From Amphirosellinia nigrospora (lineage: Eukaryota > Ascomycota > Sordariomycetes > Xylariales > Xylariaceae), in NCBI GenBank assembly GCA_004123355.1, contig SCHM01000001.1:5324001-5388000 (forward strand): a stretch of DNA of 64,000 bases. Direction: 5' to 3'. This document shows, one piece after another, positions 39,089 through 39,267 of the stretch (positions are counted from its first letter, which is position 1; each line of letters begins with the position of its first letter). A program made the position numbers and the translations under genes. Under the pieces are notes generated by a model. The model was given only the letters and a program-made list of their open reading frames with translations, did no database searches and had not been told where the DNA came from.

Positions 39089-39097
39089 AAAAAAAAA
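39089..39097 (-). terminator. Pol III T-run terminator for tRNA-Lys
   Basis: Nine T on the minus strand, 43 nt past the tRNA 3' end, the expected kind of RNA polymerase III stop signal. Confidence 0.7.
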
Positions 39098-39140
39098 GAC
39101 GGGTTGCTACTCTCAGTAATCTGAGAGGCACCAGGAATTG

Positions 39141-39267
39141 AGCCCGATGCGGGGTCGAACCTGCTAGGGTTAGTATATTTTCTTTTTGATCTCGAAAGTT
39201 TCCAATAATACTCACCCGCAACCTTGAGATTAAGAGTCTCACGCTCTACCGATTGAGCTAACCGGGC
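39141..39267 (-). tRNA. tRNA-Lys(CTT) split by a spliceosomal-type intron in the T stem
   Basis: Minus-strand exons 39216-39267 and 39141-39160 form a full cloverleaf: acceptor stem GCCCGGT/ATCGGGC (seven pairs, one G-T), D arm GCTC-GAGC, anticodon arm TGAGA-CTCTTAA-TCTCA with anticodon CTT (plus-strand AAG 39232-39234), and T stem GCGGG/CCCGC. There is no intron at the normal 37/38 position. Instead 55 nt sit between T-stem positions 52 and 53. The B box (GGTTCGA) is kept in the DNA because the intron ends in G. The T loop is one base short (TTCGAC), probably a lost C in CCCC at 39151-39154, matching indels elsewhere. The discriminator is T, as in yeast tRNA-Lys(CUU). It was identified from structure by eye. 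Confidence 0.88.
39161..39215 (-). other. Spliceosomal-type intron inside the tRNA gene
   Basis: 55 nt beginning GTGAGT and ending GCAG, with TACTAAC placed about 8 nt before the acceptor dinucleotide, the same architecture as the mRNA introns around it. Length also matches local mRNA introns (50-65 nt). Removal at GT/AG rejoins TGCGG and GTTCGA into a proper T arm. Confidence 0.85.

Follow-up and report, generated by a model that had tools for sequence, protein, structure and literature searches.

The window, a 64,000-nucleotide stretch of the Amphirosellinia nigrospora genome, carries on its minus strand a tRNA-Lys(CTT) gene whose two exons are separated by an insert with the signals of an mRNA intron (Table 1). 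The neighboring gene is the nuclear gene Cdc37, with 93% identity to that of Xylaria longipes and 90% to that of X. cubensis, which points to a Xylaria or a close relative among the Sordariomycetes. The original prediction had placed the split between bases 52 and 53 of the tRNA and described 55 nt with GTGAGT, TACTAAC, and GCAG; position, length, and motifs were all confirmed on the minus strand, and its remark that the last G of the intron completes the B box holds as well.

Table 1. Features of the split tRNA-Lys(CTT) locus (positions in the window)
Feature	Positions	Strand	Description or basis
tRNA-Lys(CTT) exon 1, positions 1-52	39216..39267	-	acceptor 5′ strand, D arm, anticodon arm, 4 nt of T stem
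Spliceosomal-type (GT-AG) intron, 55 nt, GTGAGT...TACTAACCCTAGCAG	39161..39215	-	sequence, excision and signal scans
5′ splice site GTGAGT	39210..39215	-	sequence
Branch-site sequence TACTAAC	39169..39175	-	sequence
3′ splice site AG; G also completes B box GGTTCGACCCC	39161..39162	-	sequence
tRNA-Lys(CTT) exon 2	39141..39160	-	T loop, T stem 3′ strand, acceptor 3′ strand, discriminator T; sequence
A box TAGCTCAATCGG, uninterrupted	39249..39260	-	sequence and consensus
B box GGTTCGACCCC, uninterrupted, first G intronic	39151..39161	-	sequence and consensus
Trailer hairpin, compensatory changes over 8 Lys(CTT) loci	39110..39127	-	covariation count
T9 run, likely Pol III terminator, 43 nt past tRNA end	39089..39097	-	sequence

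Exon 1 of the window copy is identical to that of three intact genes found elsewhere in the genome (52/52 nt). The claim that a full tRNA-Lys(CTT) is encoded nearly holds: the joined exons make 72 nt, one C fewer than intact genes. The T arm contains four C, as against five in each of the seven remaining Lys(CTT) loci, two-part or intact. Excision forms five T-stem pairs, as had been predicted, and leaves a T loop of 6 nt. Because of the missing C, a tRNA product of this copy is doubtful. The shortfall may reflect decay or an assembly error, the latter being possible since several other tRNA genes of this assembly likewise look one base short. By eye, single-base shortfalls in runs of like letters are apparent at L059, L060, L061, L067, L071, L073, L078, and L089, and at positions 39150-39154 of the window; such one-base-short genes in the assembly suggest homopolymer errors or decay. 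ARAGORN called no tRNA in the window, and Rfam matched only the 5′ part of the locus (31.4 bits).

The window copy belongs to a family of split genes. Searches of the 48.1-Mb genome (11 contigs), in which the queries were the split gene and an intact gene together with its trailer, returned nine Lys(CTT)-like places, namely three intact genes (L044, L045, and L046), five two-exon genes with an insert at the identical 52/53 point (the window copy, L039, L040, L041, and L042), and one relic. Several intact copies elsewhere had been named in the original prediction as one part of what would speak against it, and three do exist. The five inserts measure 55, 59, 59, 63, and 63 nt. All start with GTRAGY (four GTGAGT, one GTAAGC) and end with AG, and each has one YTRAY, whose branch A is followed by 9, 13, 13, 13, and 13 nt; the splice signals are lost in none of the five two-exon copies of this genome. 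The exons have a mean pairwise identity of 98.3% (96-100%). With the signals removed, the intron interiors average 61.3% versus 57.7% after shuffling, and the 60 nt upstream of the split genes average 54.6% versus 59.3%. The interior alignment scores were matched by 30 to 267 of 300 shuffles, so that all ten pairs are unremarkable, the lowest count (30/300) being that of L039 and the window copy. A functionless insert would scarcely retain precisely those letters that the spliceosome reads while its interior drifts. Gene conversion could explain the identity of the exons by itself; conversion tracts that end at both intron edges in several loci are hard to imagine.

The exons of L039 and L040 equal those of the intact copies over 73 nt, and those of L041 are one base off, with a G-U pair kept (G5-U68). 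L042 has two substitutions, and its tRNA is one base short. The relic, L043 (contig C1:12141474-12141532, plus strand), consists of exon 1 with eight substitutions followed by GTGAGT, and no exon 2 was seen there. Given the lesions in the window copy, L042, and L043, some split Lys copies are decaying.

Six tRNA families were searched singly: Lys(CTT), Lys(TTT), Asn(GTT), Gly(GCC), Arg(ACG), and Gln(CTG). A genome-wide tRNA census scored 63 of 1644 candidates, and its counts are lower bounds. For tRNA-Asn(GTT), three unsplit genes (L015, L059, and L061) and two split ones (L086 and L087) were found. The latter are cut in the anticodon stem at 28/29 (our own numbering) by inserts of 53 nt (GTAAGT...TCTAAC...TATAG) and 60 nt (GTGAGT...TCTAAC...ACAG), with the branch site CTAAC and 11 and 12 nt between branch A and intron end. 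The two interiors are slightly similar, with a score matched by 11 of 300 shuffles, and on these sequences conservation of the Asn signals beyond background appears less clear for that reason. Relative to the intact L015, both split genes carry a two-sided change in the acceptor stem, C6-G67 to G6-C67, and form 21/21 pairs. Among the unsplit genes, L015 pairs fully, L059 lacks one base, and L061, read in the standard register, forms 6/7 acceptor pairs. All three Lys(TTT) places have short anticodon-loop insertions, as do three of the four Arg(ACG) places, the other being unsplit; in each of these two families ARAGORN gave one place another anticodon. The 11 Gly(GCC) places were each matched unbroken over positions 1-71, and no split pattern appeared in four Gln(CTG) matches.

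All seven two-exon tRNA loci thus have a GTRAGY-like 5′ splice site and a YTRAY with 9-13 nt after its A, in introns of 53-63 nt, the short fungal type. After excision, five of the seven (L039, L040, L041, L086, and L087) give 21/21 stem pairs and a T loop of 7 nt, whereas L042 and the window copy, one base short each, remain incomplete. The existence of a spliceosomal-type intron in a tRNA gene, the core of the original prediction, is supported and strengthened by its recurrence in five Lys(CTT) and two Asn(GTT) loci, with the signals kept and the interiors drifted. ARAGORN failed to call tRNA-Lys at any split Lys(CTT) locus and called both split Asn genes tRNA-Val; the Rfam model spans the insert at three of the five split Lys loci and covers only the 5′ part of the other two.

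The specificity of the pattern was assessed by virtual splicing, in which segments of 45-85 nt with GTRNG, YTRAY, and AG were excised and ARAGORN was run over the join. In the window, 265 candidates gave two tRNA matches, both at this locus and with AGs 3 nt apart. The 766 candidates in the examined loci (191,810 bases counted, including L074, which was left out of the scan) yielded only known split loci, some of them repeatedly because of overlapping loci or a second AG, and one alternative join at L087 was called tRNA-Ser. When 383,646 anchored segments with lengths of 55, 59, or 63 nt were scanned, 5 fitted the full signal set, the window intron included. A chance origin of the signals was rejected on the basis of the segment scan and virtual splicing. 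The pattern of exon 1 plus 5′ splice site had no match in a collection of non-fungal genome contigs. The tRNA-Lys anticodon-arm pattern had one match in viral contigs (L074), which is unsplit and has a bacterial- or phage-like tRNA as neighbor.

The A and B boxes are intact in the split Lys and Asn loci, and transcription by Pol III is plausible because the introns interrupt neither; in the Lys loci, the final G of the intron serves as the first G of the B box. The first run of at least four T lies 42-44 nt past the tRNA in 5/5 split and 39-42 nt past it in 3/3 intact Lys loci. A T4 or longer run occurs within 80 nt downstream at all seven split loci, and a run of at least four T within 70 nt at 53 of 55 other tRNA loci. 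The intron of L040 holds a T5, a possible Pol III stop; avoidance of TTTT in the introns is not beyond chance (one seen in the five Lys introns, for a shuffled-rate sum of 0.95).

Downstream of the Lys(CTT) genes (window 39110-39144; L039-L042 and L044-L046), the trailer consists of GGCTCAATTCC, then a hairpin, then the T run. The B-box-like GGCTCAATTCC straddles the 3′ end of the tRNA in 8/8 Lys(CTT) loci. Over these eight loci the 7-bp hairpin has two-sided changes at six of its seven pairs and 89.1% standard pairs in 55 cells, a covariation count that is not blind, as the register was set after the result of sliding it had been seen. None of 500 shuffles matched the two-sided count, the percentage paired, or the covariation score, and the further-pair-types measure, one of five, was matched by 6/500; these counts are not probabilities, the sequences being related. 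Pair 14-32 fails in four of the eight loci. One column off this register, 38.2% of the cells are paired, with no two-sided change. The trailer had no Rfam match besides tRNA. Judged by their sequences, split and intact Lys(CTT) genes look as would one kind of Pol III unit. B-box-like sequences, GGTTCAATTCC or GGTTCAATCCC, also lie just 3′ of tRNA-Ala(AGC) in five of six flanked loci (L027, L028, L030, L060, and L072).

At least two U6 snRNA copies are present, L075 (68.9 bits) and L076 (67.4 bits), among 47 of 2335 candidates scored. L075 (contig C4:5776774-5776924, minus strand) has a 51-nt insert, GTAAGC...TACTAAC...ACAG, between GAAGAT and TAGCATGG, and this insert contains a B-box-like GTTCGAGTC. 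L076 has no insert and is off consensus around the ACAGAGA box (CCAGAGAGG). As L075 carries an mRNA-type intron, at least one Pol III transcript, U6, is probably spliced by the spliceosome in this fungus. No intron-sized insert was found in SRP RNA, 5S rRNA, or RNase P RNA among the 1, 33, and 1 matches listed. The second intron of Cdc37, an ordinary intron with boundaries set by protein alignment, shows signals of the same kind when read by eye (GTAAGA...GCTGAC...TATAG), with 11 nt after the branch A. A further Cdc37 intron (GTGAGT...GCAG) was considered as a comparator and dropped, its reading frame, inspected by eye, not closing.

We propose that at least L039, L040, and L041 (Lys) and L086 and L087 (Asn) are very likely working tRNA genes with U2-type introns that are removed by the spliceosome. 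Pol III would transcribe the split genes from their internal A and B boxes and stop at the downstream T run. The resulting pre-tRNA would contain an ordinary U2-type intron, in which the spliceosome would read GTRAGY, YTRAY, and AG and which it would excise. The T arm (Lys) or the anticodon stem (Asn) would close only after removal of the intron. In the Lys precursor, the T loop at the three loci aligned by Rfam would be 65-69 nt longer than the stem allows, or else the arm misfolds. Because these arms are disrupted in the precursor, RNase P, RNase Z, the enzymes that modify the T arm, and the tRNA exporter would be expected to act after splicing, so that end processing, modification, and export would all come after removal of the intron.

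Might the loci instead be Pol II genes whose transcripts undergo mRNA splicing before RNase P and RNase Z trim them? Splicing is generally coupled to Pol II, which speaks for this route. We nonetheless hold it to be unlikely, as the split loci retain unbroken A and B boxes, the spacing of the T run is common to split and intact Lys(CTT) genes, and U6 shows the same combination in this genome. It is quite unlikely, too, that the split loci are pseudogenes with inert inserts while the intact copies supply all of the tRNA. Having three intact Lys(CTT) genes, the fungus might be able to dispense with the split ones, and the damage to the window copy, L042, and L043 fits such a view; according to PMC4090602, short insertions in the D or T arms of eukaryotic tRNA genes mostly affect one of many synonymous genes, and the affected genes are supposed to be pseudogenes. 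Against this, L039 and L040 have exons identical to those of intact genes and L041 a change that keeps its pair, while their introns and upstream regions resemble one another no more than shuffled sequences do. In addition, 7/7 two-exon loci retain the splice signals. Moreover, both split Asn copies pair fully, whereas two of the three unsplit ones (L059 and L061) do not in the standard register. Were all split loci silent, their conserved signals and exons would remain unexplained.

Removal of the introns by the tRNA splicing endonuclease (SEN) would have parallels in nucleomorphs and red algae, since PMC4090602 describes removal of T-arm insertions in a nucleomorph and non-canonical introns in Cyanidioschyzon merolae. 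Here, however, the pairing count over registers revealed no bulge-helix-bulge at the Lys or Asn intron junctions. Among the Lys registers that give the correct join, 4/4 intronic pairs formed once (L040, register -1), with 0/3 flanking pairs, and the others formed 0-3; the Asn junctions formed 2/4 and 1/4 pairs in the single register tested as correct. The conserved letters are those of mRNA splicing, the sites lie at 52/53 and 28/29 and not after base 37, and short anticodon-loop introns, as read by ARAGORN, exist in other tRNA genes of this genome. The action of SEN on these introns is therefore very improbable. That the loci are copies of a tRNA-derived SINE or of an introner is barely credible: there are several dispersed copies with a common tRNA head, but with the whole split gene as query only two of nine matches reach exon 2 (the query itself and L039, at 81%), the other seven stop within 9 nt of the end of exon 1, the interiors are unrelated, and Lys(CTT)-like places number nine altogether.

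In every case known to us, a nuclear tRNA intron is excised by a protein endonuclease, and a protein ligase then seals the exons. These canonical introns likewise lie inside a nuclear tRNA gene, between or beside the A and B boxes; they occur at 37/38, whereas the inserts described here occur at 52/53 and 28/29, carry mRNA signals, and form no bulge-helix-bulge. Yeast U3 snoRNA genes have spliceosomal introns, and yeast U3 is made by Pol II. They thus share with the split tRNA genes an mRNA-type intron in a non-coding RNA and differ in being transcribed by Pol II. Another parallel is fission yeast U6, the mRNA-type intron of which is removed by the spliceosome (PMC8917221, in the passage citing Tani and Ohshima 1989, 1991). 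That RNA, like the U6 copy L075 here, is a Pol III transcript with a short intron; its host is a part of the spliceosome, whereas the hosts here are tRNAs of two identities. In fungal rDNA, mRNA-type introns of the 18S gene (Rogers et al. 1993, as cited in a passage of PMC11782384) and nuclear rDNA spliceosomal introns of Mycoarachis inversa (listed in the same source) are similar in that a spliceosomal-type intron interrupts a structured non-coding RNA transcribed by a polymerase other than Pol II, but their host is a Pol I rRNA and not a tRNA. The introns of tRNA genes are termed archaeal-type in that part of PMC11782384.

The introns of nucleomorphs and C. merolae resemble those described here in lying outside the anticodon loop, the T arm included (PMC4090602, in the relevant section). 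According to the same section, the non-canonical introns of Guillardia theta measure 3-24 nt and those of C. merolae are tied to bulge-helix-bulge motifs; mRNA splice signals are not mentioned there. Non-canonical eukaryotic tRNA introns are treated in PMC4090602 as endonuclease substrates or pseudogenes, its main text lacks the string "spliceosom," and the string is likewise absent from the text of PMC4033280. PMC13149111 states that the spliceosome is not used in tRNA splicing, PMC12621601 assigns eukaryotic tRNA introns to the endonuclease-ligase machinery, and PMC10161547 deals with anticodon-loop introns only. Among the papers listed from open-licence PubMed Central, none announces a spliceosomal intron of a nuclear tRNA gene in its title or in the opening of its abstract. 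As mRNA-type introns are already known from transcripts of polymerases other than Pol II, we judge the tRNA to be a new class of host RNA for them.

It is likely that these inserts represent a new class of tRNA introns and that the spliceosome serves as a tRNA maturation enzyme in this fungal lineage. If so, it would supply much of the tRNA-Lys(CTT), given that five of the eight two-exon or intact loci found are split and that three of these five form a complete cloverleaf. Of the three tRNA-Asn(GTT) loci found to pair fully, two would depend on it. The cell's capacity for splicing would then bear on how AAG and AAC codons are translated, and with U6 itself spliced, the supplies of tRNA and of U6 would be linked to splicing and to each other. 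Spliceosome-dependent tRNA genes would overturn the textbook view that the two splicing systems are separate, would extend splicing without Pol II to Pol III transcripts other than U6, and would provide natural substrates in which splicing is uncoupled from capping and from the Pol II tail. Additional tRNA families may be split too, and standard tRNA searches misread such genes.

The occurrence of split and unsplit copies together makes intron gain and loss in small structured RNA genes directly testable. Sequence comparison hints that the intact copies may derive from a gene like that of the window through intron loss. Upstream, the window copy has CAACA and CAGCAGC stretches in common with the three intact genes, and its trailer is of the split type.
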